Shown here piece by piece: positions 30,588 through 48,233 of a stretch of DNA of 64,000 bases. Origin of the DNA: Jiangella mangrovi (GTDB lineage Bacteria; Actinomycetota; Actinomycetes; Jiangellales; Jiangellaceae); contig NZ_JACHMM010000001.1 in the NCBI RefSeq assembly GCF_014204975.1, forward strand, positions 1,674,001 through 1,738,000, read 5' to 3'. The first letter of the stretch is position 1. Each line of letters begins with the position of its first letter. Under the pieces are notes generated by a model. That model made no database searches. It saw only the letters and a list, made by a program, of their open reading frames with translations, and was not told where the DNA came from. Made by a program: the position numbers and the translations under genes.

Positions 30588-33500
30588 GGATCCATTCCTA
30601 CCCCCGCGGGCCATGCCATGTCGCGACCCGTCCCGGGGATCGACACGGCGGGACCGGGGACGACGAGCTGCAGTCCGGACACGGAGACCTCGGCGCTCAG
30701 CGTGTAGGTGCCGCCGGCCAGCCCGGACAGCACGTGCAGGTAGCGCACGGCGGCCCAGCGCAGGTCGTGCTGGCCGACCTCGGTGCCGGTCGCGTCGCGG
30801 ACGACGAGAACAGCGGTCTCGGCGGGCGCTCCCGGTGCGGACGGGCCCTCGAAGTCGAGCGTGACGGGGCGCACCCGGCCGGAGCCGGTGACGCTCCACT
30901 GCGGCTCCCATCGCTCGACGGCGACCGCTTCCGTCGCGGCCGACTCGCCCGCGGAGTTGGCGGCGACGGCGGTGAGCTCGTTCCCGCCGACGGCGACCGG
31001 TGCGGCGACGCTCCAGGTGCCGTCCGGCGCCGTCCGCGCGGTCGCCACCGCCGAGCCGCCGGCCAGCACCGTCACCGTCGACGGCCAGTCCGCCGTGCCG
31101 GTCGCCGCGACGGTGCCGCTCACGGTGACCGCGGGCGCCTCCAGCGTCGGAACCGACGGCGCCGTCAGAGAAGCGTCGCGGGCCCAGTCGACGGCGTTGA
31201 GCAACAGCCGCTCGCCCTCGCCGGTCCAGCCCAGCCCGGGACCGACCGCGCCGGTCACCGCGCTCGCGGACAGCACGACCTCGACGCTGCCGCCGGTGCG
31301 CCAGTCGTACCCGGCCGCGATCCCCGTCGCCGGCGAGGACAGCATCGCCAGTGGCCGGCCCACGTACGACGCCAGCGCGCTGTAGTAGCCGCCGTCGGTG
31401 ATGAGGGTCGCCGGGTCCGGCAGACCCGCGAACAGCGAGTGCGACGGGTCGAAGCCGGTGATCGTCACCGGTCCGTCGCCGTAGCCCTGGGCCCCGACGG
31501 CGACCCGGTCGGTGTACGCCTCGAGCAGGCGGACGCCGCCCTGGTCCACGCCCCAGGTGCCGGTGAAGACCAGGCTCGCCTCGGCGGCGTCGGCCGCGGT
31601 GAGCACGCCCTCGAACGTCGCGCGGTCCGGCTCGCCGCCGTTGACCACGACCACCTCGTAGGCGTCCAGGCTCCCAGCCGCGACGGTCCAATCCAGCGGT
31701 GCGGCGGCGACCCCGGAGTCGCGCAGGAACGCCGTCACGGCTCCACCCACGTCGCCGAGCACACCGACGTCCAGCGGCTCCAGCGTCACGTCCAGCGTGG
31801 CCGTGGCGTCCGCCGTCACGACCACCGACGCCGTCGCCGGCAGGTGGCCGGCGGCGGTCACGGTGACGGCGTACGAGCCCTCGAGCAGGCCGTTCGCCAC
31901 GTACGCGCCGGACGCATCGGCGGTCGCGGTCCAGCCGTCCGGCCCGGTGCCGGTGACGACGGCGCCGGCCACCGGCTCGCCGCCCGCCGACGTGACGGTG
32001 CCGGCCACGCTCCCTCGCGGCAGCGGCGTCAGCGCGACGTCCAGCGTCACCGTCCCCGAGGCCGGGACCTCGACGGTCCGCGTCGCCGGAGCGAACCCGA
32101 ACGCCTCGACCCGGATCGTGTGCGCGCCGGCCGCCAGCCCCAGCACGTAGGCGCCGTCGGCCCCGGTGGTCGCCGACACCGCCGCCTCGACGGCCGTCAC
32201 GGTGGCGCCGTCGAGCGGTGACCCGTCCGCCGTCACGACCCCCGCGACCTGCGCCTGCCGGGCCTCGGTCGCCCACGCGACGGCGTTGAGGTAGATCCGT
32301 GCCGCGTCGGACGTCCAGCGGTCGCCGGGCCGGCCGTACGAGCTGGCCGCCAGCCCGCCGAGCAGGATCTCGACGCTGGTCCCCGACGTGAACCGGTAGC
32401 CGATGCCGTCGCCGAGGCCCATCCCGTCCGTCCCGGACCGCAGGGTTCCCACCGTCGTGCCGCTGTAGCCGGAGTAGGTCAGGTACTGCTGGTTGCCGCC
32501 GGGGTTGACCAGCAGCGGGATCGGCTCGCCGACGGGGTGCCCGGCGAAGATCGGATGCTCGGCCGTGGGGACGACCTCGACCGTCTCGGGTACGAAGTCG
32601 TACTCGACGGCGGCCGGGTCGCCGCGCAGGGCCGACAGCGCGCCGACGGCGTACCCGCCCCACTGGCCGGCGTGGACGACGGAGACGCCCGCGGCCGCCG
32701 CGGCGTCGACGACCTGCCCGAACGCGGCCCGCTCCGAGGTCAGGATCGTGCCGTTGAACACGACCAGCCGGAAGTCGCCGACCCGTTCCGCGAGGCCGGC
32801 CAGCTGCGCCCCGCTGACCTGCTCGACGGCGTAGCCCTCGCCCTGCAGCAGCCCGGTGATCGACGACGACAGGTCCTTGACGACGGCAACCGGCAGCGAC
32901 GCGCGCAGCCGGACGTCGGCGTCCACCGTCCCGCCGCCCGGCACGGCCACGGACCGCTCGAACGCCTGGAAGCCCGCGGCCGTCACGCGCAGCGTCCACC
33001 CGTCGGCCGGCACCGACCCGATCGAGAACGAGCCGTCCGCGCCCGTCGTCGTCGACAACGGCGTGCCGAGCAGCTCGACCCGCGCACCGCCGACCGCGGC
33101 GCCGTCGGGACCCGTGACCGTTCCCGCGACGGTGCCCATCGGCCGGGTCGCGAGCTGGATCGGCCGGGTGAGCACCTGGCCGGCGGCAACGGTGACCGGC
33201 ACATCCGCCGTCACGTGCCCGAAGCTCTCCGCCCGCAGCGTCCACGTGCCGGGCGGCAGCGGGACGACGAAGCTGCCGTCGCCGGGCCGCGCCGGCACCG
33301 TCGCACCCGTCTCGGCGACGGTGACCGAGCCGGTCAGCGCCGTGCCGCCGGTGTCGGTGAGGGTGCCGCGGACCTCGGCGCCGACGCGGTCGGTGTCCAG
33401 CGCGTAGCCGAGCGCGTTGCGCAGCAACCGCTCCGCCTCCGGCGACCAGCTCAGCCCGGGCTGTGCGCCGTACGCCGGGTAGCCATAAGTGCTCACGGAC

Positions 33501-36500
33501 AGCGTCCCGAGCAGCACGTCGACGGCGCGGGCGCCACGGTGCCGGACGCCGGCCAGGCCGCGCTCGGTACCGCCGTCCGAGCGCACCGTCGCCACCGTCG
33601 TGCCGCTGAACTCCTCGAACCAGGAGTACTCGGCGTCGTCCTCGACCAGCGGGAACGTCGCCGGCAGGCCGGCCAGCAGCGGGTGCTCCGGCTGGGCGGC
33701 GGACGCCGTGACGGCGCCGTCGTTGCGGGTCTCGCCGGCCACGCCGGGGTCGCCGCCGTAGTCGGACAGGTAGCGGAACGAGCCGCGGCCGAACTGGTCC
33801 AGCCAGATCGCCGGAACGCTGGCGCGGTTCAGCGCGTCGTCGAACGCGGCGTGGCCCGCGGCGCCGGGGTCGAACCCGGACGACGAGCCGAGGTTGGCGA
33901 CGACGAGGTCGAGGTCGCCGACGGCGGCGGTGTCGGCCCAGGTCAGCGGCTGTGGCGTGTAGCCCCAGTGCTGCAGGTACCCGGCGAGGCGCCCCTGGTG
34001 GTCGTCCAGGACGCCGACCGTGGGCGAGGACCGCAGCTCGACGTCGGCGCCGGTCTCCGCGCCGATCGTGATCGACACCGGGACCCGGGTGCGCACGTGC
34101 CCGTCGGCGACCACCTCGAGCTCGTAGTCGCCCGGCTCGACCAGCCCGAGCGCATAGGTGCCGTCCTCGGCGGTCGTGGCGGTCAGCGGGGTGCCGAGCA
34201 GCGCGACCGTCGCGCCGGCGATCGGCTCGCCCAGGGCGGACGGCCCGCTGATCTCCGCCTCGCCGGTGATCCGGCCGCGGACGGTCCCGGTGTCGGCCGG
34301 GGTCAGCTCGGCGTCGAGCCTGGTGACGCCGTTGCGGGTGACGGTGACGCCGTGCTCGACGGTCTTGTAGCCGAACGCGCTGATCCGCAGCGTGTACTCG
34401 CCGGCCTCGAGCGGGACGACGTACGCGCCGGTCTCGTCGGCCGACACGGAGCGGCCGGTCTCGACGACCTCGACGTCGGCAGGCACGCGGACGCCGTCGG
34501 CGCCGGTGACCGTGCCCTCGACGCTGCCCAGCCCGGGCGCGGCGGCCCAGCGGACGGCGTTGAGGTAGAGCGCGCGGCCGTCGTCGGTCCAGTCCTCGGC
34601 CGGGTGCTGCAGCAGCGTCGCGGCCAGGCCCGAGAGCAGCAGGTGGACGCTGCCGGGCGTGCGTGCGGTGTAGGCCGCGCCGACGCCGCGGTCGCCACCC
34701 TCCTCGGTGACGGTGTGCGCCAGCGGGACGCCGGAGTAGCCGACGATCCCGGTGCTGTACCGGTCGGCGAGCAGGATCTCCGGCTGGCCGGACAAGCCGG
34801 CGAACAGCGGGTGGTCCGGCCGCGTCGGCGCCAGCGAGACGATGCCCTCGCCGCTGACCGGCGTCGTGCCGGCCGGGTCGCCGAGATACTTGCGTAGCAG
34901 CCGCACGCCACCGTCGGAGCTGAACCGGTCGTCCGGGAAGATGCCGCTGACCTGCGCGGCGTCCATCGCGTCGAGGAATCCTTCGAACGCGTCGGCACCC
35001 GGGTCCGGCGGGTCGTTGAAGACGATGACGTCGAACTCGCCGACGCGGGTGACGTCGGTGAACGCGATCGGCTCGGCGGCGATCTCCGCACCCGTCAGCA
35101 GGGCGACGATGCCGTCGCTCGCGTAGTCGCCGATGACTCCGACCCGCGGCGCCGGCTCCAGCTCGACGTCCGCGACGGCCTCCTGACCGGCGACGACGGT
35201 GACCGCTGCGGTCGCGGAGAAGTGGCCGCCGGCCGACACCCGCAACTCGTACGTCCCGCCGGGGACGTCGGCCAGCGCGTAGGCGCCGGTCGCGTCGGTC
35301 GTGGCGGTCAGCTCGGTCCCGGAGAGCGCGACCAGCGCGCCCGCGACCGGGGCGCCGTCGCGGCCGCTGGTGACGGTGCCGCTGACCGCGCCGAGGCCGG
35401 AGCTCGTGAGGGTCGCGTCGGCGGTGAGCTCACCGCCCGCGGTGACCGTGACGGCCTGTTCGACCGGCGTGCTGCCGGGCCGGGCGAACCGCAGCGTGTG
35501 GTCGCCGGGCTCGAGCAGCAGCCGGTAGCGGCCGTCGGCGCCGGTGGTGGCGCTCTGCGCACCCGCCTGGACGGTGGCTCCCGCGAGCGGCTGGCCGGTC
35601 TCGTCCACGACCGTGCCCGCGACCGCGCCGAACTCCGCGTCTGCCGCGTAGCGCACGGCGTTGTCGAGGACGGCGAACGCCGGCGCGAGCCAGTCGGTGT
35701 CCGGGACGCCCCAACTGGCGGCCGCCGCCAGCGAGCCGAGCAGCACGTGCGCGCTGCCGGTGCCGCGCGGCGCGTAGCCGATGCCGCTGCCCGCCGCGCC
35801 GGTCTCGTCGGTGTGCAGCTCGGCGACGGTGACGCCGGAGTAGCCCGTGAACGCCGACCAGGCCGAGCCCGGCGTCAGGATCTCGGTCCGTTCGCCCGGC
35901 GACAGGCCCGCGGTCAGCGGGTGCTCCGCGGTCGCGACCAGCGAGATCCGGCCGGCGCTGCCGAGGTCGCCGGGCGCGGCCTGCGGGTCGCCGGTGTAGT
36001 CGACGAGGTGGTTGATCGCACCCCAGCCCAGCGACCACTGGTCCAGCCAGACGACGCTGGTCCCGGCCGCGTCGGTGGCGGCGAGGAACGCGTCGAACGC
36101 CTCCTGGCCGGGCTCGGTGCCGTCGGCGCCGTTGGCCACGACGACCTCGAAGTCGCCCGGCCGCGCGGCGACGTCAGCGTAGTCGGTGGCCTGCGCGGCG
36201 TAGCCGAGGTCCTCGAGGACGGCCAGGATGCGGCCGCGGTCGTCACCGACGACGGCGACCTCGTACCGGGTGAGGGTCAGCTGGACGTCCGCCGTCTCGC
36301 CGGCGGTGACGGTGATCCGCTCACGCAGCGGGGCGTAGCCGGTCAGCTCCGCCTCGACGGTGTAGGTGCCGGCGGCGACGTCGCCGAAGCCGAAGCTGCC
36401 GCCGCCGTCCGTGGTGACGGGGTCGAGCGGGGTGCCGGCCAGGGTGACGGCGACGCCGTCGAGCGGATCGCCGGCCGCGTCGCGGACGGTGCCGGTGACG

Positions 36501-39500
36501 GCTCCGGTCTCGACGGCGGTCAGCTCGGCGTCGATCGTGACCGTGGCGCCGGCCGCCAGCTCGACCGTCTCGGTGTGCGTGCTGAGCCCGTAGTGCGCGA
36601 CGGTGACTGTGTAGCTGCCAGGCGGCTCGGTGAGCTCGAACGCACCGGTGCCCGGGTCGGCCGTGGCCTCGGCACCGGTCTCCTCGATCCGGACGGTCGC
36701 GGCGACCGGTCCGCCGGGACCGGCGACGGTGCCGCGGATGGTGCCGGTCGGGTGGAACGCGAACACGTTGCCGCGGACGTCGGCACTGACCAGCAGCCCG
36801 TCGGCGTAGGCGGGCGAGGTCGTCACGTTGCCCTCGGCCGGCGCCTCCCACACCAGCTCGCCGGTCGCGGCGTCCAGCGCCCAGAGCCGGTAGTCCAGCT
36901 GCGAGCCGCCGACCACGAAGCCGTCGTCGGTGACCGCGACCGACGCGCTCACGGCGCCGGACACCGCGTACTGCCAGACCTGCTCTCCGGTCTCGCGGTC
37001 GTAGGCCACGACCAGCCCGAGGCCGTGCGACCCGGCGATGACGAGGTCGCCGTAGACGGCCGGCGTGCTGCCCTGGCCGTCGCCGTGGGTGCCGGCCTCC
37101 CAGCGCAGCGTGCCGGTGGCGGCGTCGACCGCGAGCAGGCTGCCGCCGCCGTCGCCGTCCGTCGTCGGGACGAACACGGTGCCGTCGACGATGCTCGCGC
37201 CGCCGATGAAGTAGTCGTCTTCACGGGTCAGGGTCCAGCGGACCTCTCCGCTGGCCGCGTCGAGCGCGATCAGCTCGCCGTCGTCGGCGTTCCCGACGAT
37301 CGCCAGGCCCTCGCCGACCGAGGGGCCGGCGAAGACCGAGGTGCCGACGTCGGTGGCCCAGAGCTGCTCGCCGGTGGCCGCGTCCAGCGCGAACACGGTG
37401 TCCTCGCGGTCCTGCGTCGGGCCGGTCGCCGCGTAGACGACGCCGCCGACCACGCTGGGCGCGGTGTAGACGGTGAGCCGGTCCGGCGTCGGGACCGACC
37501 AGCGCTGGGCGCCGGTGGCCGCGTCGAGGGCGACCAGTCCGCCGTCGAGCCCGCCGCCGCTGACGACCAGGTCGCCGGCCACGGCCGGGGTGCCGCGCAG
37601 AACGTCGCCGGCCTGGAACGACCAGAGCCGCTCGCCGCTGCCGGCGTCGTAGGCGGCCAGCCGGCCGGCATCGGAGCCGAGGAACACCCGGCCGCCGGCG
37701 ATGACCGGCGAGGCGAACGTCACCGGACTGTCCGCGTCCTGCGTCCAGCTCGGCTGCAGCGTGCCGGCGGCCAGAGCGTCGCCGCTCATGCCGCTGCGGG
37801 TGGCGTTGTTCTGGTACTGCGACCAGCCGGGGTCGGTGGGCTGGTCCAGGGCGTCGAGGGCGACGTCGAGCTGCTCGTCGCCGTCGAGCGTCAGGTCGAG
37901 GGTCGCCGGCTGGTGTCCGGCCGCACTGACCCGGACCTCGTACGTGCCGGCGGCGACGCCGTCGAACCCGAAGCGGCCCTCGTCGTCAGTGCTGACGGCG
38001 TCGAACGGGGTGCCGGCCAGGGTGACGCGGGCATGCGCGATGGGTCCGGCGGGCCCGGTGACGGTGCCGGTGAGGTCGTGCGTCGCGGCGGCGTCGAGTG
38101 CGAGGTCGATCGTGGTGGTCTCGCCGATCGCGACGGTGACGTCCTCGGTGGCGGTGACGTAGCCGTAGGCGGCGGCCGTGACGGTGTGGTCGCCGGCCGC
38201 GACGGGGACGGCGTAGGCGCCGGTGTCGTCGGTGGTCGCGGTGGCGGTGTCGCCGACGGCGATGGTGGCGCCCGCGACGGGGTCGCCGTCCGGGCCGGTG
38301 ACGGTGCCGGAGACCGTGCCCGAGTAGGCCGCGCGGGTGACGGCGGCGTAGGCGTCGACGATGCCGGCGCCGTAGCTGTCGTTCGGCAGGTCGCCCATGT
38401 GCGGCTCGGTGCGAGCGGTGTCCTCCAGCAGGGCGCGGATGTCGTCGATGGTGAGGCCCGGGTTGGCCGAGAGCATCAGCGCGACGACGCCGGTGGCGTG
38501 CGGCGAGGCCATCGAGGTGCCGGAGATCGTGTGGTAACCGTCCTCGCCGTCGGGCAGGTCCCGCGGCCAGGTCGAGCGGATCTGGTGGCCGGGCGCGCTG
38601 ACCTGCGGCTTGCGGATGCGCTCGCCGTCCCAGATCGCCGGGCCGCGGCTGGAGAAGCTCGCGACCACGTCGTTGACGTCCGTCGCGCCGATGCCGATCG
38701 CGTGCGGGAAGCTGCCCGGTGAGCCGACCGTGCCCGGCGCCGGGCCGTTGTTGCCGTTGGCGAAGATCGGCACGATGCCGGCGGCCTCCCAGGCGGCGAC
38801 GTCGTCCCAGAACGTCGTCGCGCCGCCCGCGTCGGACCCCCACGAGTTGTTCACGACGTCGGGCGCGGCGGCCGGGTCGCCGCCGGGCGCGAGCATCCAC
38901 TGGAAGCCGTCGTGGATGATCGACTCGGTGGTGCTGCCGGAGTCGCGGAAGATCTTCGCCGCGATCCACTGGACGCCGGGCGCGACGCCGGTCAGCTCCC
39001 CCGGCGCGCTGCCGACGATGCTGCCGGTGACGTGGGTGCCGTGGCCGTGACCGTCGCCAGGGGTCGGGTAGTTCTCGCCGGTCGGGGCGTACCAGCTGGT
39101 GGCGGGGTCGCCGGTGGTACCGCGCCAGGACGCGCTGAGCGCCGGGTGGCCGCCGTCGGCGCCGCCGTCCATGATGCCGACCACGACGCCCTCGCCGCGG
39201 ACCCCGTACTCGCCCCACACCTGCGGCGCGTGGATCTTCTCCAGACTCCAGCTGGGCAGCAGCGGCACGCCGGGCGCGGGCTCGATCGGCTCCTCGAGGG
39301 TGATCTCCTCGTCCAGCCCGACGCTGGCGACGCCGGGATGGGCCTCGAGGGCGGCGAGCGTCTCGGCGTCGACGGTGGCGGCGACGCCGTTGAAGATCCA
39401 GTACGGGGTGACGGCGGTGGCGCCGCGGTCGGCGAGCAGGTCGAGCACCGCGGGCTGGGTGGCGTCGGCGGCCGCCTGGAGCTCGGTCATGACGGTCTCG

Positions 39501-39934
39501 GTGCGGGCGACCCGGGCGGCCTCGAGGGCGGCGGCGCTGCTGCTGCGGTGGCGGGCGCGTGCCGCGTCCGCGGCGGCGTCGGCCTGTGCGGCCACGGCGT
39601 CGAGGTCGGCCTGGTCGCGCAGCCGGATGATCACCGGGACGGTGCCGTCGTCCGCTACTGCGGTGCGGACGGCGTCCTCCACTCCGGTGGGTGCCGCGGT
39701 CTCCTGATCCGCCGGGGTCCCGGTGCCGGAGCCGAACTCGGACGGGTCGACGGGCAGTCCTGCGGTCAGGTCGGCGGGAACGGCCTCGCTTTCGGCCGCC
39801 GCCTTCGCCGTCGTGACTGCGGCCCGCACCGGGAGTGAGCCGGACGCCGTCGCCGCCGGTGGCACCAGGCCGAGAGCCAGCAGCGGCACCAGGAGCAGCG
39901 CGAGCGTGCGTGGGAGCAGCGTGCGTACAGGCAT
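30584..39934 (-). CDS. Giant secreted S8 subtilase with repeated CarbReg/amidotransferase-like modules
   Basis: A 3116-residue exported serine protease. Signal peptide: residues 1-30. An inhibitor-like prodomain (about 95-210) is followed by the peptidase domain with D256 (GIMDGGAD, instead of DTG), H301 (GHGTHVTG), oxyanion N395 and S474 (GTSMASPH). Then come two carboxypeptidase-regulatory-like (CarbReg) domains, a PQQ-type beta-propeller (about 725-1060; repeated LWxFQ/GxxxALDAATG blades), and five repeats of two CarbReg domains plus one 200-residue amidotransferase-like domain. The C-terminus is a beta-sandwich with no sortase or membrane anchor. It may digest and bind polymers outside the cell; the target is unknown. 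Confidence 0.93.
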   Translation of the reverse strand: MPVRTLLPRTLALLLVPLLALGLVPPAATASGSLPVRAAVTTAKAAAESEAVPADLTAGLPVDPSEFGSGTGTPADQETAAPTGVEDAVRTAVADDGTVPVIIRLRDQADLDAVAAQADAAADAARARHRSSSAAALEAARVARTETVMTELQAAADATQPAVLDLLADRGATAVTPYWIFNGVAATVDAETLAALEAHPGVASVGLDEEITLEEPIEPAPGVPLLPSWSLEKIHAPQVWGEYGVRGEGVVVGIMDGGADGGHPALSASWRGTTGDPATSWYAPTGENYPTPGDGHGHGTHVTGSIVGSAPGELTGVAPGVQWIAAKIFRDSGSTTESIIHDGFQWMLAPGGDPAAAPDVVNNSWGSDAGGATTFWDDVAAWEAAGIVPIFANGNNGPAPGTVGSPGSFPHAIGIGATDVNDVVASFSSRGPAIWDGERIRKPQVSAPGHQIRSTWPRDLPDGEDGYHTISGTSMASPHATGVVALMLSANPGLTIDDIRALLEDTARTEPHMGDLPNDSYGAGIVDAYAAVTRAAYSGTVSGTVTGPDGDPVAGATIAVGDTATATTDDTGAYAVPVAAGDHTVTAAAYGYVTATEDVTVAIGETTTIDLALDAAATHDLTGTVTGPAGPIAHARVTLAGTPFDAVSTDDEGRFGFDGVAAGTYEVRVSAAGHQPATLDLTLDGDEQLDVALDALDQPTDPGWSQYQNNATRSGMSGDALAAGTLQPSWTQDADSPVTFASPVIAGGRVFLGSDAGRLAAYDAGSGERLWSFQAGDVLRGTPAVAGDLVVSGGGLDGGLVALDAATGAQRWSVPTPDRLTVYTAPSVVGGVVYAATGPTQDREDTVFALDAATGEQLWATDVGTSVFAGPSVGEGLAIVGNADDGELIALDAASGEVRWTLTREDDYFIGGASIVDGTVFVPTTDGDGGGSLLAVDAATGTLRWEAGTHGDGQGSTPAVYGDLVIAGSHGLGLVVAYDRETGEQVWQYAVSGAVSASVAVTDDGFVVGGSQLDYRLWALDAATGELVWEAPAEGNVTTSPAYADGLLVSADVRGNVFAFHPTGTIRGTVAGPGGPVAATVRIEETGAEATADPGTGAFELTEPPGSYTVTVAHYGLSTHTETVELAAGATVTIDAELTAVETGAVTGTVRDAAGDPLDGVAVTLAGTPLDPVTTDGGGSFGFGDVAAGTYTVEAELTGYAPLRERITVTAGETADVQLTLTRYEVAVVGDDRGRILAVLEDLGYAAQATDYADVAARPGDFEVVVANGADGTEPGQEAFDAFLAATDAAGTSVVWLDQWSLGWGAINHLVDYTGDPQAAPGDLGSAGRISLVATAEHPLTAGLSPGERTEILTPGSAWSAFTGYSGVTVAELHTDETGAAGSGIGYAPRGTGSAHVLLGSLAAAASWGVPDTDWLAPAFAVLDNAVRYAADAEFGAVAGTVVDETGQPLAGATVQAGAQSATTGADGRYRLLLEPGDHTLRFARPGSTPVEQAVTVTAGGELTADATLTSSGLGAVSGTVTSGRDGAPVAGALVALSGTELTATTDATGAYALADVPGGTYELRVSAGGHFSATAAVTVVAGQEAVADVELEPAPRVGVIGDYASDGIVALLTGAEIAAEPIAFTDVTRVGEFDVIVFNDPPDPGADAFEGFLDAMDAAQVSGIFPDDRFSSDGGVRLLRKYLGDPAGTTPVSGEGIVSLAPTRPDHPLFAGLSGQPEILLADRYSTGIVGYSGVPLAHTVTEEGGDRGVGAAYTARTPGSVHLLLSGLAATLLQHPAEDWTDDGRALYLNAVRWAAAPGLGSVEGTVTGADGVRVPADVEVVETGRSVSADETGAYVVPLEAGEYTLRISAFGYKTVEHGVTVTRNGVTRLDAELTPADTGTVRGRITGEAEISGPSALGEPIAGATVALLGTPLTATTAEDGTYALGLVEPGDYELEVVADGHVRTRVPVSITIGAETGADVELRSSPTVGVLDDHQGRLAGYLQHWGYTPQPLTWADTAAVGDLDLVVANLGSSSGFDPGAAGHAAFDDALNRASVPAIWLDQFGRGSFRYLSDYGGDPGVAGETRNDGAVTASAAQPEHPLLAGLPATFPLVEDDAEYSWFEEFSGTTVATVRSDGGTERGLAGVRHRGARAVDVLLGTLSVSTYGYPAYGAQPGLSWSPEAERLLRNALGYALDTDRVGAEVRGTLTDTGGTALTGSVTVAETGATVPARPGDGSFVVPLPPGTWTLRAESFGHVTADVPVTVAAGQVLTRPIQLATRPMGTVAGTVTGPDGAAVGGARVELLGTPLSTTTGADGSFSIGSVPADGWTLRVTAAGFQAFERSVAVPGGGTVDADVRLRASLPVAVVKDLSSSITGLLQGEGYAVEQVSGAQLAGLAERVGDFRLVVFNGTILTSERAAFGQVVDAAAAAGVSVVHAGQWGGYAVGALSALRGDPAAVEYDFVPETVEVVPTAEHPIFAGHPVGEPIPLLVNPGGNQQYLTYSGYSGTTVGTLRSGTDGMGLGDGIGYRFTSGTSVEILLGGLAASSYGRPGDRWTSDAARIYLNAVAWATEARQAQVAGVVTADGSPLDGATVTAVEAAVSATTGADGAYVLGLAAGAHTIRVEAFGFAPATRTVEVPASGTVTLDVALTPLPRGSVAGTVTSAGGEPVAGAVVTGTGPDGWTATADASGAYVANGLLEGSYAVTVTAAGHLPATASVVVTADATATLDVTLEPLDVGVLGDVGGAVTAFLRDSGVAAAPLDWTVAAGSLDAYEVVVVNGGEPDRATFEGVLTAADAAEASLVFTGTWGVDQGGVRLLEAYTDRVAVGAQGYGDGPVTITGFDPSHSLFAGLPDPATLITDGGYYSALASYVGRPLAMLSSPATGIAAGYDWRTGGSVEVVLSASAVTGAVGPGLGWTGEGERLLLNAVDWARDASLTAPSVPTLEAPAVTVSGTVAATGTADWPSTVTVLAGGSAVATARTAPDGTWSVAAPVAVGGNELTAVAANSAGESAATEAVAVERWEPQWSVTGSGRVRPVTLDFEGPSAPGAPAETAVLVVRDATGTEVGQHDLRWAAVRYLHVLSGLAGGTYTLSAEVSVSGLQLVVPGPAVSIPGTGRDMAWPAGVGMDP
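31165..36740 (-). repeat. Five tandem copies of a ~1.1-kb protein module inside the subtilase gene
   Basis: Each unit encodes a CarbReg pair followed by a ThuA/class I amidotransferase-like domain. The amidotransferase-like parts start near 36265, 35147, 34025, 32900 and 31783 and share GVLGD-like openings, a VVVxNG strand, HPLxAGL, YSG, a GIGY strand and end in NAVxWA. The last CarbReg of each pair usually contains LxGTPL. Divergence between copies is high, so the duplication is old and no nucleotide-level identity is obvious. Confidence 0.85.
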
Positions 39935-41126: not shown

Positions 41127-41507
41127 ATGACCTCTTCCGCCCCGATCAACCTCGACGCCGCACTCGCCTCGTTCGAGGATCTGTGGAGCCCGCGCATCGT
41201 CACGCGGATCAACGACTACGACGTCCGGATCGCCAAGGTCCAGGGCGAGTTCGTCTGGCATACGCACGACGACACCGACGAGTTCTTCCTGGTGCTGGAC
41301 GGCGAGCTGACGATCTCGCTGCCGGACTCCTCGGTGGCGCTGCGGCGTGGTGACGTCTTCGTCGTCCCGCGCGGCACGCAGCACCGCCCGTCGTCCGCCG
41401 AGGGCGCGTCCATCCTCATGTTCGAGCCGACCGGCACCGTCAACACCGGCGACCACGACGGTGACACGCCCGCGCACATCGCCAGCACCACCGGCCAGGC
41501 GCTCTAG
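41127..41507 (+). CDS. Cupin-domain protein
   Basis: A 126-residue single-domain cupin. The metal-binding motif WHTHDDTDEFFLVLDGELTI carries two His and one Glu, and the second motif GDVFVVPRGTQHRP adds a third His, so a mononuclear metal site is complete. Small cupins include isomerases, dioxygenases and sugar-binding sensors. GCGGAGG lies 9 bases before the ATG. Its stop overlaps that of the convergent nitroreductase gene. Confidence 0.88.
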   Translation: MTSSAPINLDAALASFEDLWSPRIVTRINDYDVRIAKVQGEFVWHTHDDTDEFFLVLDGELTISLPDSSVALRRGDVFVVPRGTQHRPSSAEGASILMFEPTGTVNTGDHDGDTPAHIASTTGQAL

Positions 41508-42151
41508 GGGACCAGTGGGGTGCCCCAGCGGTCGAGGTAGCTGAGGTCCTCGACCGGCTGGCGGGTGCCCGGCTTGAAGTCCTGGGTGGTCGTGTAGGCG
41601 ATCGGCAGCAGGCCCACCTGAGTGACGTCGTCGGGGATGCCGAGGATGCGCGCCGCCTCGGCCTCCTTGACCAGGTGGTACGACGTCAGCGTGGAGCCGA
41701 GCCCGCGCGAGCGCAGCGCCAGCTGGAAGCTCCACACGGCCGGGAAGATGCCGCCGTAGAACACGGAGTCGGCGGCGTTGGTGCCGTGCGGCCGGCCCTG
41801 CACGCACGGGATGACGAACACCGGCACCCGCTCGATGATGTCGACGAGGTACTGGCCGGACTCGAGGATCCGCTTCATCGGCTGCCGCTCGGCCGCCTCG
41901 CCCGCGGCCTCGCGCCGGTGCTGCATGTACGCCGTGCCGACCTCGCGGAAGATCGCGCCGAGCTGGTTGCGTAGCTCTTGGTCGCGGACCACCAGCCACC
42001 GCCAGCTCTGCGCGGCGCCCGGCGTCGGTGCCTGGACCGCGAGGCGCAGGCACTCGGTGATGACCTCGGGCTCCACCTCGCGCTCGAGGTCGAGCTTCCG
42101 CCGGACCGCGCGCGTCGTGCTGAGCAAGTGGTCGGTGACGGCGGTGTCCAT
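41504..42151 (-). CDS. Nitroreductase family protein
   Basis: A 215-residue FMN-dependent oxidoreductase. It has the N-terminal TTRAVRRKLDLEREVEP segment, APTPGAAQSWRWLVV with FMN-binding residues, and a C-terminal GIPDDVTQVGLLPIAY strand. The family reduces nitro or quinone groups or removes halides; the substrate is unknown. I used the ATG at 42151; an in-frame start 36 bases earlier is possible, and neither has a clear ribosome site. The stop lies in CTAG shared with the cupin stop. Confidence 0.88.
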   Translation of the reverse strand: MDTAVTDHLLSTTRAVRRKLDLEREVEPEVITECLRLAVQAPTPGAAQSWRWLVVRDQELRNQLGAIFREVGTAYMQHRREAAGEAAERQPMKRILESGQYLVDIIERVPVFVIPCVQGRPHGTNAADSVFYGGIFPAVWSFQLALRSRGLGSTLTSYHLVKEAEAARILGIPDDVTQVGLLPIAYTTTQDFKPGTRQPVEDLSYLDRWGTPLVP

Positions 42152-42219
42152 GCGCGTCAGAGTACTGATCGTCCGAAGCCGGGGGGACATGGGTCTGCGA
42201 CCCCGGGATCCCGGTTGAT

Positions 42220-42268
42220 CATGGAGAAGAGCGGGTTTCCAGGGCCGTGGAAGCCGCACTTCTCCATG
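42220..42268. repeat. Intergenic palindromic element (21-bp stem hairpin)
   Basis: CATGGAGAAGAGCGGGTTTCCA (42220-42241) and its near-complement (42248-42268, read in reverse CATGGAGAAGTGCGGCTTCCA) form a 21-bp stem with two mismatches, one bulge and a 6-base loop. It is in a 184-base gap between genes on the same strand, and no U-run follows. It looks like a palindromic repeat unit or the remains of a small mobile element. Confidence 0.75.
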
Positions 42269-42334
42269 GTCGACAACAGATACGTCGGCCTGACGGTAGG
42301 AAGGGCACGTCGATCCGTCAGACACTCCCCAGCG

Positions 42335-43042
42335 CTACGGGGTCCAGTCCGGCGCGTCGACGGACCCGGTCTCACTGACGAAGAGCACGTGGACGCCCGC
42401 GGCGGCGCGTCCGGTCCGGGTGCGCTCGGCGAGGCCGCGGTAGCGCAGCAGGTCCGGCAGCACGATGAGGGACTCGTGCCCGGGCTGGGAGTCGAGGAGC
42501 ATGACCGCCCGCAGCAGTGCCTGGGAGAACCAGTGCGCCGCCCGCGAGGCCGGATAGGTCTTCGTGATCCCGGCGGCCCGCCGCACGCCGGCGTCGTCCG
42601 CCGAGGGCCAGCCCTTCACCTCGGCGCCGAGCCGGCGATCGCCCTTGCGAGCGGCCACGTCGACACCGCGCTCGCGCGAGGCGGTGTCGGCTGTGGAGAC
42701 CACCTGCCAGCCGTGGTCGTGCAGGAACGCCGCGAACATCGACCGCACCTCGCCGTCCCACGGCCAGCCCTGACCGGCGGCCGGGTCGAGCGGCGACGCT
42801 CCGCCTGCCTCGGAACCGAGGATCTCGAAGCCCAGCGCCCGCAGGTGCCGCCGGGCGACCGCACTGGAGAACTGGCCGAGCGGCAGGCCGGTGACCAGGT
42901 GGTACACCTGCTTGACGGGGAAGACGACGTCGCCGACGCGGACGCCGTACTTCTGCACACGGCCGGGCTGCACACCGTTGAGCACACGCACGATGTCCTC
43001 GCGGTCCAGGTCGACCTCGACTCCTCTGACGACGAACCGCAT
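42335..43042 (-). CDS. PD-(D/E)XK nuclease-like protein with ScoMcrA-like N-terminus
   Basis: A 235-residue protein. Residues 1-75 (VGDVVFPVKQVYHLVTGLPL, then HLRALGFEI) resemble the small head domain seen in ScoMcrA-type restriction proteins. The second half has an E98 helix, then GVDV (D128) and EVKGW (E141, K143), the order of a PD-(D/E)XK nuclease site. The start is 27 bases after the helicase-nuclease stop, so it is the second gene of that operon. A DNA-end or restriction function is likely but unproven. Confidence 0.72.
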   Translation of the reverse strand: MRFVVRGVEVDLDREDIVRVLNGVQPGRVQKYGVRVGDVVFPVKQVYHLVTGLPLGQFSSAVARRHLRALGFEILGSEAGGASPLDPAAGQGWPWDGEVRSMFAAFLHDHGWQVVSTADTASRERGVDVAARKGDRRLGAEVKGWPSADDAGVRRAAGITKTYPASRAAHWFSQALLRAVMLLDSQPGHESLIVLPDLLRYRGLAERTRTGRAAAGVHVLFVSETGSVDAPDWTP

Positions 43043-43069
43043 GGGCCGAGGATGCCGGGAGCCTCGGAC

Positions 43070-46000
43070 TCAACCCGCGGCGACGCGACCCGTCGCGTAC
43101 TCGACCAGGCGGCACAGCGTGTTGACGCCCTGGACCTGGTCGAGACTGCGCACCGGCGCACTCAGCAGGGCCGGGCTGCCGACCAGGACGGCCAGCGACC
43201 GGGCCCGCGAGACCGCGACGTTGAGACGGTTGCGGTTGGCGACGAAGTCGACGCCGCGGGGAGCGTCGGCGGCGGACGACGTGGTGAGGGAGACGATGAC
43301 GACCGGCGCCTCCTGCCCCTGGAACTTGTCGACGGTGCCGACGCGCGCCCGGCCGTCGAGCACGCCGAGCAGCTGGCCGACCTGCGCGTTGTAGGGCGCG
43401 ACCACCAGGATGTCGGCCGGCCCGAGCACGCGCGCGGACCCGTCGGCCGCCGTCCAGGTGCGGCCGGTGAGCGAGGCCACCAGGTCGGATACCACCGCCA
43501 CCTCGGCGTCGCTGCGGACCGAGCAGCCGGCGTGAGCAACCGGCACCCACCGCACGCCCGCGCCCGCCAGCTCGTCGGAGCCGCCGACCCGCTGGTTCTC
43601 CATGCCGGAGCGCGGCACCAGCAGGGAGTCGTAGGACAGCTCGGACACCGGCGCGCACACGTCGGGGTGCATGCGCCAGGTGGTGTCGAGGAACAGGCCG
43701 CGTTCGGGCGGGACGGTGTCGTGCTCGCCCAGCACGTGGTCGAGTGCGGAGAGGCCGGCGCCGTCGGGGTGGATGCCCTTGGCCGGCTGCGGCAGCTGGC
43801 GGGGGTCGCCGAGCAGGATGACGGACTGGGCGGCGGCCCCGGCGGCGACGGTGTTGGCCAGCGAGAACTGCCCGGCCTCGTCGACCACCAGGACGTCGAC
43901 GTGGATGTCGGGGCGGGCGAACAGCCAGCCGGTGCCGGCGACCAGGTTGACGGCGCCGGTCGCGATGGCCGCCTCGACCTGGTCGTTCGAGTTCGTCACC
44001 AGCACCGACGGGTGTCGGCTGCCGTTGCCGTCGTCGGCCTTCTGGACGGCCCGCACGACACCGCCGCCGACACCGACGGCGTCGGCGGCCATGACCGCGT
44101 CGAGCAGGTTGGTGATGACCCGGTGACTGAGCGCCGTGATGCCGACGGTCTTGCCCGCGCGCAGCAGCTCGATGACGGCGTGCGAGCCGGAGTACGTCTT
44201 GCCCGCGCCCGGCGGACCCTGGACCGGCAGCGCGCCGTCGAGCGCCGGCGCCACCCGTCGCAGCGCGTCGGAACCGGACTCGCCGTCCAGCCGCAGCCGG
44301 ACCCCGTCCCCCAGCCGCGGCGACGCGCCGGACAGCAGGTCGCGGACGCCGCGGAACGGGCCGTCGGCGTCGAACCCGTGGTCGGCGATCCAGGAGCCGA
44401 CCCGGCAGATGGCCGTCTCTTGCACCTTGGACGGGATGGGGCCGACCTTCAGGACGCCGTCGGGATGCGGGTGCTCGTTGGCCAGCGACCGCTTGAGGTC
44501 GACGTGCCCGCGCTCGAGGTCGAGCCCGACGACGATGCTGCTCCGGCCCTCCTGCTCGGCGTGGTCGACCCGCTCGCCGACGCGGATGCGGCAGTCCTGG
44601 ACCGGCATGGAGTAACGCCAAACCCCGGACCTCAGCTCGGTGCGCAGCAACTGCGGATCGGACAGACCGCCGAGCGGCGACACGTCGTCGACCAGCTCGG
44701 CGGAACTGAGCCAGCGCAGCCTGAAGTACTCCCACCACTCCGCCCGCGCCTCGCGCCGATGCCATTCGAGCAGCCCCGCCAACAGGGCGCGGGCCCGCTG
44801 ATCGGGCGTGCGGGAATCGGGGTCGGCCGGGACGCCGGCGAGCAACCGCTCTTCGAGCGCGACCAGGTCGGGATCGCGCTCCTTCAGGTAGTCGTCCTGC
44901 CCGTCGCCGAGGGCCGGCCGCGGGACGGCATGCCCGGCCTCGACCGCCTCGGCCCGCCGGTCCTCGAGCCAGTCGCGCAGCTGCCGAGTGCTGATGCAGT
45001 CGTCGCGGTTGTAGGCCTCGATGTCGTCGAGGATCTGCTGGTCGTGGTCGGCCAGCCAGCGCTCGTACTCGACGATGCTGGACCCGGCGTCCTTGACGGC
45101 GGCGCCGGCCCGGCCGTCGGGCGAGTAGAAACGCTCCAGAGCCTTGATGGAGTACGACTCGGTCCCGACCAGCAGCCCCTGCTTGACCACGGCGTAGAGG
45201 TCGACCAGCCGCTCGCCCCGCAGCAGCGCGTCGACCTCGTCGACCCGGGTGCCGTAGCGCTGCGACAGCCCCTTCAACCGGCTCGGCTCGTACGGCGCGT
45301 AATGGTAGACGTGCATGCCGGGACGGGCCTGCCAGGCGGCCATGAGGTGGTCGACGACGTGCTCGAACGCTCGCCGCTCGGCCTGCGGGTCGTGCGCCCA
45401 CCAGGACACGAAGCCGTCGTGCACATCGGACACGCCCCACAGGTACTCGAGGCCGTGGTCGCCGAAGAACGGGTCGCCCTCGAGGTCGAGGAAGAGGTCG
45501 CCGTCGTCGGGGGCGGGCAGCAGGGCCAGGCCGCGGCGCGCCTCGATGGGGGTGACCAGCTCGTACGGCGGCAGCTGCTGCGAGCGTGCGCCGACCTGCA
45601 GCCGGGCCTGCGTGGCGAGCTTGCGCCTGCTGGACCCGCCCACCCGCGTGACGGTGTCGAGTTCAGCCGGCGTGGCGGCGGCCAGCTGGTCGACGGTGGT
45701 GATGCCGGCGGCCCGGAGGGAGTCGCGCTGGTCGCGGCGCAGGAACGGCACCAGCACGAGGTCGTCGTCGGTGTGCCACTGCTCGGCGCACTGGTCCTTC
45801 CATGGGCAGATGGCGCAGTGGCTGACGCGCAGCGGATAGGTCGGCAGCGGGTCAGCGAGCCACTGCCCGTACTGCCGCATGGCGTGGCGCGCGTAGGCGG
45901 CGACGTCGACGTACGGGACGGCGACCTGCTGGCGGTCGCCCAGGATGACGGTGAGGGTCTGCGGAGGAACGCCCTGCAGCTGCTCGAGACGCTGGGCGTA

Positions 46001-46450
46001 GACGGCCATCTGCAGCAGCGCCGCCGCCTTGACGTGCCGGGCCAGCTTGGTGTCGGCGATGTCGTAGGACCACGGCCCGAGCTCGGAGGAACGGTCGTCG
46101 TTGCGGATGAGGAAGTCGGCGTGCCCGCGCCAGCGCCCGTCGAAGAAGGTGGCCTGGAAGATGCGGTCGGCGCCGTCCTTCATGGCGGCCAGGGTGCGGT
46201 CCTCGGCGTCGGCGGGGCCGGTGCCGCGCGGGATCTCGACGACGCGGTGCGCCGCGGACATCTCGGCCAGGATGGCGGCCTCGTGCTCGTCGCCGCGGCG
46301 GCGGACGACGTCGGCGCCGGGATCGTCGGCCCGCGGCCGCGCGCGCCGTCCTTCCGCCACCTCGCGGTTGAGCGTGGTGAGGTGCGGGCACTCGAGGTGG
46401 CCGACCAGGTCGGTCGGGCTGAGGACCAGCCCGCCGTCGGTGACGTACAT
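43070..46450 (-). CDS. RecB-like (TM0106) Fe-S nuclease fused to SF1 helicase
   Basis: A 1126-residue DNA-processing enzyme. Residues 1-230 are a RecB/Cas4-like nuclease: D112, D133-T-K135 and Q147xxxY151, with four Cys (C21, C212, C215, C221) set for a 4Fe-4S cluster. A middle RNase H-like region shows LFLDLEGDPFF. The last 450 residues are an SF1 helicase with GPPGAGKT, VDEAGQFS, LLGDPRQLPQP, DKFQGQEA and NVAVSRAR. The ATG at 46450 follows AAGGAGG; a start ten codons earlier lacks one. It leads an operon with the PD-(D/E)XK gene. Confidence 0.92.
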   Translation of the reverse strand: MYVTDGGLVLSPTDLVGHLECPHLTTLNREVAEGRRARPRADDPGADVVRRRGDEHEAAILAEMSAAHRVVEIPRGTGPADAEDRTLAAMKDGADRIFQATFFDGRWRGHADFLIRNDDRSSELGPWSYDIADTKLARHVKAAALLQMAVYAQRLEQLQGVPPQTLTVILGDRQQVAVPYVDVAAYARHAMRQYGQWLADPLPTYPLRVSHCAICPWKDQCAEQWHTDDDLVLVPFLRRDQRDSLRAAGITTVDQLAAATPAELDTVTRVGGSSRRKLATQARLQVGARSQQLPPYELVTPIEARRGLALLPAPDDGDLFLDLEGDPFFGDHGLEYLWGVSDVHDGFVSWWAHDPQAERRAFEHVVDHLMAAWQARPGMHVYHYAPYEPSRLKGLSQRYGTRVDEVDALLRGERLVDLYAVVKQGLLVGTESYSIKALERFYSPDGRAGAAVKDAGSSIVEYERWLADHDQQILDDIEAYNRDDCISTRQLRDWLEDRRAEAVEAGHAVPRPALGDGQDDYLKERDPDLVALEERLLAGVPADPDSRTPDQRARALLAGLLEWHRREARAEWWEYFRLRWLSSAELVDDVSPLGGLSDPQLLRTELRSGVWRYSMPVQDCRIRVGERVDHAEQEGRSSIVVGLDLERGHVDLKRSLANEHPHPDGVLKVGPIPSKVQETAICRVGSWIADHGFDADGPFRGVRDLLSGASPRLGDGVRLRLDGESGSDALRRVAPALDGALPVQGPPGAGKTYSGSHAVIELLRAGKTVGITALSHRVITNLLDAVMAADAVGVGGGVVRAVQKADDGNGSRHPSVLVTNSNDQVEAAIATGAVNLVAGTGWLFARPDIHVDVLVVDEAGQFSLANTVAAGAAAQSVILLGDPRQLPQPAKGIHPDGAGLSALDHVLGEHDTVPPERGLFLDTTWRMHPDVCAPVSELSYDSLLVPRSGMENQRVGGSDELAGAGVRWVPVAHAGCSVRSDAEVAVVSDLVASLTGRTWTAADGSARVLGPADILVVAPYNAQVGQLLGVLDGRARVGTVDKFQGQEAPVVIVSLTTSSAADAPRGVDFVANRNRLNVAVSRARSLAVLVGSPALLSAPVRSLDQVQGVNTLCRLVEYATGRVAAG

Positions 46451-46517
46451 GCCGCACCTCCTTCTTCTCGTCGGGTCCAAGCCTGCCGCATGCCTCCGAC
46501 AGAATCGGTACGGCGCG

Positions 46518-47240
46518 TCAGCCGGCGAGTGAACGAACGATCAGTGTGATCGCCGACAGCGCGCACACCACCATGACCGCCAGCCGCAGCCGTCCGCCGT
46601 CGGCGACCCTCCGCAGCGAGGACGCCGCCGCGAACCCGGCCGCGAGCAGCGGCGAGAGCGAGAGAGCCGCCGTCGTCTGCGTCATCGTCAGCTCGCCGAA
46701 CAGCCGCAACGAGGCGAGCGAGAACCCCGCGCCGATGAGGAAGTACACCGCGAGCGTCGAGCGCACCTTCGGACCCAGCTCGCTCTGGTAGACCAGCGCC
46801 AGCGGCGGCCCGCCGATCGACGTCGCCGTCCCCGAGATGCCCGACACCGTGCCGGCCGCGACCAGCACGCCGCGCGTCATCGGCAGCCGGATCGTCCGGA
46901 CCGTGAGGACCACCGCGACCAGGATCACCAGTCCGACGATCACGCTCAGCACGCGCTGCGAGATCACCGAGACGATCCACGCGCCGAGCACGGTGGCCGG
47001 GAACCGCCCGAGGAACGCCCAGCGCAGCCCCCACCAGTCGATGTGCGACCACTCGCGGGCCAGCGTGAACACCGGCAGCAGCATGGACAGCCAGAGCAGC
47101 GTCCCCGGCATCAGCTCCGGCGCCAGCAGCGCGGCCACGGGCGCAGCGAGCAGGCCCAGCCCGAGTCCGATCGCGCCCTGCACGGCGGCGCCCAGGAACA
47201 CGGCGACCGCGAGCACGAGCATGACGTCAACCGGCGGCAT
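46518..47240 (-). CDS. TSUP (TauE/SafE) family membrane exporter
   Basis: A 240-residue membrane protein with eight predicted segments. GAAVQGAIGLGLGLLAAPV in the first half and the repeated SGISGTATSIGGPPLALVYQ in the second are the paired family motifs. TSUP proteins export sulfite, sulfonates or organic acids. It starts 45 bases after the DUF4862 stop and may be the last gene of the dipeptidase operon, where it could export a waste anion. Confidence 0.9.
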   Translation of the reverse strand: MPPVDVMLVLAVAVFLGAAVQGAIGLGLGLLAAPVAALLAPELMPGTLLWLSMLLPVFTLAREWSHIDWWGLRWAFLGRFPATVLGAWIVSVISQRVLSVIVGLVILVAVVLTVRTIRLPMTRGVLVAAGTVSGISGTATSIGGPPLALVYQSELGPKVRSTLAVYFLIGAGFSLASLRLFGELTMTQTTAALSLSPLLAAGFAAASSLRRVADGGRLRLAVMVVCALSAITLIVRSLAG

Positions 47241-47285
47241 CGTCGGCCCCGTGCCGCCGGGTGCGTGACGTCATCGGCGACGGCG

Positions 47286-48233
47286 TCAGCTGCGGCTCTG
47301 TGCGCGCTCGACCGCGTCGGCGACGATCGCTACGTTGGCCGCCACCAGGTCCAGGCACTCGGCCGGCGTGGCCGTGCTGGGCGAGGAGACCTTGACGCCG
47401 GCGAACCGCGGCGAGGCGGCCGCGTCGACGCAGGCCCGTACCTCGTCGGCGGTGAGCAGGCTGGTGGCGGCCTCGGCGGCGACCGGGGCGCCGGACCAGT
47501 CGCGGATCGGCAGGTGCAGGTCGGCCCAGGCCGGCCCGTCGAGCGTGTCGGCGTCGGACACCCCGGAGAACACGAGCGCGCCGAGCCGGCCCTGCGCCAG
47601 CACGGCGGCGAGGTGCTCGCGGGCGCCGGCGACGCGGCGGGTCTCGATGACCGAGCGGCCCCAGTTCACCGAGAAGCCGATGCCGCGCTCGGCCGCGACG
47701 GCGAGCTCGTCGTCGAGCGTCAGGAAGCCCTTGGCCGGCTCGTGCTCGTCGCTGTGCGCGTCGGAGTGCTCGATCAGCAGCTCGGTGCCGCCCCAGTCCC
47801 AGGCCAGGACCTCGTCGAGCGAGGCCCGGAACGCGTCGGCGGACGTGTACGGGTGCCGCGGCGCGGAGTGCACCTCGACGGCGGCGAACGTGCCGCCCGG
47901 GCCCTCGTTGACGGCGGTGACGAACTCGAAGGCACGGCGCAGCTGCTCCACGGCCTGCTTCCGGCCGCCGTCGTCGGACGAGGCGAGGCCCTGAGTGGGC
48001 GATCCGGCCAGCGCCATGATCGTCGCCGGGATCATCGTCAGCACGTGCTCACTGCCGGCGGCGGTCGCGTGCAGGTAGGCCGGATCGTTCCACGTGGAAC
48101 CTTCTCCTTGGAACGGCACCTCCAGCCCGTCGACCGCCGGCAGCGCCAGCACGTCGTCCACGTAGGTCCGGAACTGCGTGCCGGGCTCGAGGCCCCGGGG
48201 TGCCGCCGCATACGCACCGACGATGAAGGGCAT
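47286..48233 (-). CDS. DUF4862 family protein
   Basis: A 315-residue protein of a family of unknown function with a TIM-barrel-like pattern (GLEVPFQGE, FAAVEVHSAP, ELLIEHSDAH, IGFSVNWGR, GALVFSGVS), reminiscent of sugar-phosphate isomerases. The ATG at 48233 has GAGGAG 6 bases upstream, and the conserved MPFIVGAYA begins there; an earlier start adds 19 unrelated residues. It is 84 bases downstream of the reductase gene in the same operon. Confidence 0.85.
   Translation of the reverse strand: MPFIVGAYAAAPRGLEPGTQFRTYVDDVLALPAVDGLEVPFQGEGSTWNDPAYLHATAAGSEHVLTMIPATIMALAGSPTQGLASSDDGGRKQAVEQLRRAFEFVTAVNEGPGGTFAAVEVHSAPRHPYTSADAFRASLDEVLAWDWGGTELLIEHSDAHSDEHEPAKGFLTLDDELAVAAERGIGFSVNWGRSVIETRRVAGAREHLAAVLAQGRLGALVFSGVSDADTLDGPAWADLHLPIRDWSGAPVAAEAATSLLTADEVRACVDAAASPRFAGVKVSSPSTATPAECLDLVAANVAIVADAVERAQSRS

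Follow-up and report, generated by a model that had tools for sequence, protein, structure and literature searches.

A 64,000-nucleotide window of the Jiangella mangrovi genome (NCBI RefSeq assembly GCF_014204975.1, contig NZ_JACHMM010000001.1, positions 1,674,001 to 1,738,000 of the forward strand) contains, at positions 42335 to 46450, two adjacent genes which a first-pass annotation had described as a candidate DNA-defence or repair operon. Judged from sequence comparison and protein models, these are quite probably two functionally separate genes: a vertically inherited DNA2-like helicase-nuclease (the large gene) and a captured and probably defensive orphan PD-(D/E)XK restriction nuclease with a head probably of ScoMcrA type (the small gene). 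The two-gene 'operon' is a local juxtaposition and not a conserved module, since the large gene lives without the small one and the small gene without the large one. Of the earlier label, the joint module was therefore given up, while defence was retained for the small gene alone and repair for the large one. The genome (7.16 Mb, a single contig) was analysed with a collection that has 12 genomes of Jiangella and 22 of its order. The features on which the argument depends are as follows.

43070..46450, minus strand: large gene, encoding a TM0106-type iron-sulfur (Fe-S) RecB nuclease, RNase_H_2 and an SF1B helicase (matches to TIGR03491, RNase_H_2 and AAA_12)
43043..43069, minus strand: spacer between the large and small genes, 27 bases
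42335..43042, minus strand: small gene, 235 amino acids (aa), with a head (residues 1-78), a linker and a PD-(D/E)XK nuclease (residues 93-235)
42806..43042, minus strand: head domain of the small protein (residues 1-79), modelled alone (predicted local distance difference test score, pLDDT, 91.6; best match 5zmm_B in both Foldseek and VIA-align)

The large gene and its separation from the small gene

The large protein matched TIGR03491 (TM0106 RecB-like) over residues 11-493 and model positions 4-462 of 462 (E 2.8e-81), with a score of 273.8 bits, above the curated cut-off of 97.45. Its layout comprises a RecB-family nuclease (residues ~11-300), an RNase_H_2 domain (317-493, E 1.4e-22) and an SF1B, UPF1/DNA2-like helicase (~720-1110), the last recognised by AAA_12 (E 2.5e-23 at 913-1090) and by AAA_11; PDB sequence matches (SMUBP-2, DNA2, UPF1 and SEN1) all fell in the helicase part. 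The four cluster cysteines (C19, C210, C213 and C219, counted from the GTG at 46444) were kept in 17 aligned sequences, which take in one other-family sequence about 47% identical, and so were the GxxD, DTK and Q-rich RecB motifs and the RNase H-like and helicase motifs. The ATG at 46450 is most likely the start of the gene, a choice favoured because orthologues begin '..MY..LVLSPTDLV'. The fusion of a RecB-like nuclease carrying four cysteines with an RNase H-like part and an SF1 helicase, as described in the first-pass annotation, was borne out by these data, together with its coordinate of 46450 for the start and the 27-base spacing. From its domains, the large gene would encode a DNA-repair or processing enzyme resembling Bad of Geobacillus stearothermophilus, and 'repair' is a better label for it than 'defence'; that such a DNA2-like protein lies close to a nuclease in a single genome does not amount to evidence of a defence machine.

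Assignment of the large protein to Mokosh was also considered and rejected: the PADLOC models MkoA (3.7e-43) and MkoC (3.4e-21) matched best at 919-1116 and 914-1096, in the shared helicase part alone, and the partner genes were not found at the locus, where the neighbours are TauE and nitroreductase genes.

Both genes lie on the minus strand in the same direction, the large one ending at 43070 and the small one starting at 43042. The large gene is a single copy in 12/12 Jiangella genomes, in a block ordered AraC regulator, cupin, nitroreductase, a slot, large gene, TauE and DUF4862, continued in several genomes by ADH, dipeptidase and AsnC; this is the conserved, syntenic core position without defence context that the first-pass annotation had itself named as grounds against its proposal. 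The small gene was found in only three of the 12, always in the same slot (intact in G000 and G011, frameshifted in G003), and in the remaining nine the large gene keeps its position without it. Across the class, the large gene was detected in 38/394 sampled genomes (E <= 1e-100). In 16 of these, from other families, the flanking genes read by eye were for the most part unremarkable (resembling ribonuclease Z, RlpA, Hsp20 and biotin carboxylase), and no small-gene relative was seen beside the large gene at these 16 loci; one of them, L148, has an SMC-like ATPase and a transposase-like open reading frame (ORF) next to the large gene. Conversely, no large gene was found within the ~7 kb of flank examined (less at some loci) around the small-gene loci outside Jiangella. 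When the other-genus genomes that carry the small gene were searched as a whole for large-gene relatives, 14/20 had none by a cautious count and 15/20 at E <= 1e-40 (6/21 genomes matched, one of which is Jiangella and one further match being partial). The suggested search for the pair in defence islands placed the small family beside defence-type genes (see below) but not the pair, which was absent from the loci examined outside Jiangella.

Several side observations concern relatives of the large gene. On a Pimelobacter plasmid (L050, 12289-13941), a RecB-like nuclease annotated as TM0106-family adjoins an ADP-ribosylglycohydrolase, ~3.5 kb from the small-gene relative. In a sister genus, two AbiEi-like proteins come immediately after the large gene; at L042 (6504-10088) and L045 (5759-9661), likewise from a sister genus, the large gene is broken up or interrupted and has an AbiEi-like protein directly after it, and L045 includes a run of unknown bases.

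One possible explanation of the arrangement in J. mangrovi is a single restriction or defence machine, in which the small protein would mark or cut foreign DNA and the helicase-nuclease would degrade it. The common strand, the close spacing and the retention of the pair in G000 and G011 favour this explanation, as does the position of Bad beside a type III-like DNA methyltransferase in Geobacillus, for which a restriction role was proposed by its authors (PMC7430649). It nevertheless appears improbable, given the distributions described above and the unrelated cargo which occupies the same slot elsewhere; as a conserved two-gene defence operon the pair was rejected, being limited to 3/12 Jiangella genomes (one copy broken) and found together at no other-genus locus.

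The Geobacillus arrangement is also one of several points that weigh against the separation we favour. The synonymous divergence (dS) between G000 and G011 is alike for the two genes, at 0.32 and 0.27, and since these two genomes split the small gene has therefore probably been passed down together with its neighbour. The corresponding ratios of non-synonymous to synonymous divergence (dN/dS) were 0.49 for the small gene and 0.34 for the large one, the former indicating only moderate constraint on the small gene. Some cooperation of the pair within Jiangella is conceivable, the two being kept together in two intact genomes. In addition, a control PADLOC scan of 84 large-gene neighbours returned scattered single members of defence systems, one of them strong (SngC, 6.9e-265); the contrast between small-gene and large-gene neighbours is a qualitative one, because cross-matching occurs among the PADLOC helicase models and the loci do not represent independent draws.

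The small gene as a candidate restriction nuclease

In the AlphaFold model of the small protein (pLDDT 81.7), D96, D128, E141 and K143 form the predicted catalytic site, and the order of DSSP elements fits the alpha-beta-beta-beta-alpha-beta core of PD-(D/E)XK enzymes. D128, E141 and K143 are invariant in 25 aligned relatives, and position 96 is Asp in the window copy and Glu in most of these relatives. The restriction-type nuclease site noticed earlier was thus confirmed at the level of fold and conservation, and active-site residues were found to be conserved in the homologues of both proteins. With VIA-align, residues 96-233 were closest to XisH (2okf, Z 11.4, 2.6 Å over 116 residues; 2inb, Z 10.1), further folds being AF1548, PaqCI and EndoMS. 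Sequence searches yielded much less: with a cut-off as loose as E 10 the small protein still matched nothing in Pfam, it matched no PADLOC model, and in the PDB sequence search it gave only weak UPF0102 (E 0.038) and Hjc (E 0.24) matches.

The N-terminal part of the protein is probably a ScoMcrA-type head. In VIA-align, the head modelled alone superimposed on the ScoMcrA head (5zmm) over 62 residues at 3.2 Å and 18% identity with Z 6.1, a range (Z < 8) in which, by the tool's own warning, a match may reflect merely a common arrangement; the next entry, the PhoB winged helix, reached Z 3.3. Foldseek gave 5zmm_B a probability of 0.89, yet an E-value of 0.33. The only NCBIfam match of the small protein was to the SCO5918 family, NF038312 (E 7.4e-8, residues 1-75). 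The ScoMcrA-like head proposed in the first-pass annotation therefore agrees with the structural match and with NF038312, though not with Pfam.

Head relatives, located in genomes with an alignment-built model, occur in other settings as well. The head may be a module common to different proteins: it is fused to DUF6308 in L087 (1501-2511), and in L088 (1219-1731) it is followed by DUF5678 at a locus which also has a C5-methyltransferase-like ORF. In several genomes of a single genus, SCO5918-type heads of ~100 aa that stand alone adjoin a DEAD-box RNA helicase gene or have one close by (L089, L090 and L093). In Jiangella G008 (L094, 1240-2258), a head frame is followed, after a frameshift, by a frame which by eye resembles a GIY-YIG nuclease (GLYGF..LYIGES); in this candidate broken fusion the GIY-YIG identity was not borne out by Pfam, and a plasmid search for it was empty.

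Relatives of the small gene were found at 32 loci in bacterial genomes, most of them full-length, and also on Nocardioides and Pimelobacter plasmids. Plasmids of Arthrobacter and Thermus carry the nuclease half by itself, which in Thermus is mostly annotated as a MarR regulator (L052, 5767-6408, and other plasmids); the one distant Thermus relative that was aligned keeps the D and K but has Thr in place of the catalytic Glu141, a residue lost in this relative only. No relatives were found in phage records or in IMG/VR viral contigs. Many of the Nocardioides-type loci share a plasmid-like or integrative and conjugative element (ICE)-like backbone with ParB, ssb, DUF4192 and DprA. Among the loci closest to Jiangella, the Cellulomonas copy (L053) adjoins a type I restriction-modification (R-M) system (HsdM, 2.4e-263; HsdR-like, 3.4e-27), and the Phytohabitans copy (L054) lies near a DrmD helicase (E 0) and a DUF4365/PDC-M02A protein (3e-64). 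In L064 the small gene neighbours DpdE-like (1.6e-85) and DruE-like (1.1e-92) helicases, in L072 a DpdE-like one (2e-285), and in L062 both a relaxase and a PLD/SNF2-type helicase. Taken together, the sequence data make the small gene a likely defence gene, because its relatives adjoin R-M systems, DrmD-, DpdE- and DruE-like helicases and mobile-element genes, and because in sister species its Jiangella slot holds other candidate defence or toxin-antitoxin genes.

An initial reading by eye of the L064 neighbour as DISARM was dropped in favour of DpdE/DruE-like helicases, which agree better with the per-protein scan. Two further proteins without a name recur beside small-gene relatives on Nocardioides-type elements (L060, L063 and L072; gene clusters 5 and 7), namely a 240-aa protein with no Pfam match and a 269-aa GIY-YIG-like protein.

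The same neighbourhoods bear on another explanation, in which the small protein would serve a mobile element by controlling its excision, entry or maintenance, as XisH does, and would not act in defence. Its best structural match is indeed the XisH family, and many of its relatives reside on the conserved plasmid/ICE-type backbone. However, the likeness to XisH is one of fold, at 16% identity, no element genes surround the small gene in Jiangella, and relatives adjoin R-M and defence-type helicase genes; we regard this role as unlikely. That both proteins are DNA-repair enzymes, the small one being a structure-specific repair nuclease, is more doubtful still: a weak resemblance in fold and sequence to Hjc (2eo0) and EndoMS/NucS and the operon-like closeness to a repair-type enzyme are in its favour, whereas one would expect to meet a core repair nuclease in every genome and the small gene is patchy, broken in one copy, plasmid-borne among its relatives, flanked by defence-type genes, and related in fold to restriction enzymes and XisH.

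On the defensive reading that we prefer, the small protein would be a metal-dependent PD-(D/E)XK endonuclease tethered to its head and acting against incoming DNA, either as a type IV-like or as a solitary enzyme. Its gene would be exchangeable cargo, expressed by read-through from upstream genes. We infer cleavage, its target, the effect on defence and co-transcription with the large gene. A family that spans actinobacterial chromosomes and plasmids with neither a Pfam nor a PADLOC model could readily be taken into restriction screens as a new candidate.

The slot behind the large gene

The slot was compared in the 11 of 12 Jiangella genomes that are syntenic here (in G005 the nitroreductase side is rearranged). 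Its surroundings in the window are the following.

42335..43069, strand not assigned: mini-hotspot cargo, lying between the nitroreductase gene and the large gene (from the size and content of this gap in the syntenic genomes)
41504..42325, minus strand: nitroreductase gene bounding the slot (Pfam Nitroreductase, 3.4e-20; synteny)
42190..42282, strand not assigned: dispersed palindromic repeat resembling repetitive extragenic palindromic (REP) elements (strong palindrome, hairpin)
46518..47240, minus strand: TauE/SafE-family transporter on the far side of the large gene (Pfam TauE, 1.7e-20; synteny across the genus)

Five genomes (G002, G006, G007, G008 and G009) have an empty slot, with a gap of 23-447 bases from the large stop to the conserved nitroreductase start. 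In the other six of the 11 the slot is filled by cargo of four kinds that are not related to each other, each of them nuclease-like or toxin-antitoxin-like, and all of it is oriented as the large gene. Besides the intact small genes, these are, in G003, the broken small gene with a NucS-like protein that matches the PADLOC candidate PDC-S11 over its full length (3.8e-147); in G001 and G010, a helix-turn-helix (HTH)-like protein with an AbiEii-like nucleotidyltransferase (AbiEii just under the Pfam cut-off); and in G004, an HTH-nucleotidyltransferase (PDC-M05A, 5.9e-15) with a second small ORF which by eye only resembles a HEPN partner. Other gaps of the block also contain inserts, by eye fumarate reductase/succinate dehydrogenase-like, MazG-like and secreted hypothetical proteins. 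The pattern, drawn from 11 syntenic genomes with no statistic attached, is suggestive of a mini-hotspot. Such a slot would mean that single defence genes are exchangeable behind a housekeeping gene with no integrase or phage nearby, on a scale below that of the usual defence islands.

A bolder and more tentative proposal, which we rate at somewhat less than even, extends both parts of this account: the small gene would found an undescribed family of solitary restriction nucleases (head plus XisH-like PD-(D/E)XK), its head being a swapped module that senses a substrate or partner, and the region 3' of the DNA2-like gene would be, in Jiangella, a true mini-hotspot that receives defence and toxin-antitoxin genes.

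The neighbouring repeat pointed out in the first-pass annotation is real, with ~71 strand-wise matches in its own genome and 0-67 in other Jiangella genomes; its link to the system was not upheld. It is a dispersed palindrome whose copy number varies across the genus, and it was placed outside the system because in G011 the interval between the small gene and the nitroreductase gene is only ~60 bases long, too short to contain it. With the mechanical start (42325) the nitroreductase frame crosses the repeat, and translation probably begins further inside, around MDTAVTDHLL. A scan of 41400-47400 for consensus promoters and terminator-like sites found none, but is of little value for a GC-rich actinobacterium. 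Elsewhere in the window, an ORF of 3116 aa (30584-39934) encodes, by eye, a secreted subtilisin-like protease with many carboxypeptidase-regulatory-like and PQQ-like repeats, the N-terminal part of which is syntenic in several Jiangella genomes.

Comparison with known systems

The closest characterised protein to the large protein is Bad, which has an Fe-S cluster, a 5'-3' single-stranded DNA motor and a single-stranded DNA endonuclease activity, and of which a 'second class' was reported in Mycobacteria and Rhodococcus (PMC7430649). Compared at the level of domains and motifs, both proteins have an N-terminal RecB-family nuclease, four cluster cysteines and a C-terminal SF1B helicase. By analogy, the large protein most likely follows a Bad-like mechanism: it would load on a free 5' single strand or flap, translocate 5' to 3', and cut single-stranded DNA with its Fe-S RecB domain. 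The two differ in the middle, where the central domain of Bad was reported to resemble nothing known (PMC7430649) and the large protein has a recognisable RNase_H_2 domain between nuclease and helicase. They differ also in setting, since no methyltransferase was seen adjoining the large gene in the window, unlike Bad in Geobacillus. TIGR03491 covers only the N-terminal half of the large protein, the helicase being additional. Literature searches on TM0106, SCO5918 and XisH gave nothing on the function of these genes.

For the small protein, three systems are relevant. ScoMcrA, a phosphorothioate-dependent type IV enzyme, provides in its head the best structural match to the N-terminus of the small protein; the role of this head in ScoMcrA is not known (PMC6224610), and the small protein offers a handle on it. 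Unlike ScoMcrA, the small protein has no sulfur-binding, SRA-like or HNH domain, and its nuclease is of the PD-(D/E)XK type; with 235 aa made up of head and nuclease only, it was rejected as a type IV enzyme of the ScoMcrA or sulfur-binding-domain kind. The SCO5918 family (NF038312) matches residues 1-75 at 32.4 bits, below its cut-off of 60, and its model, of 98 positions, has no nuclease domain, unlike the small protein. Finally, the XisH family (fdxN excision controlling factor; 2okf and 2inb) provides the nearest fold for the nuclease domain, but its solved chains are of 128-129 aa without a head, and their genomic setting differs from that of the small gene.

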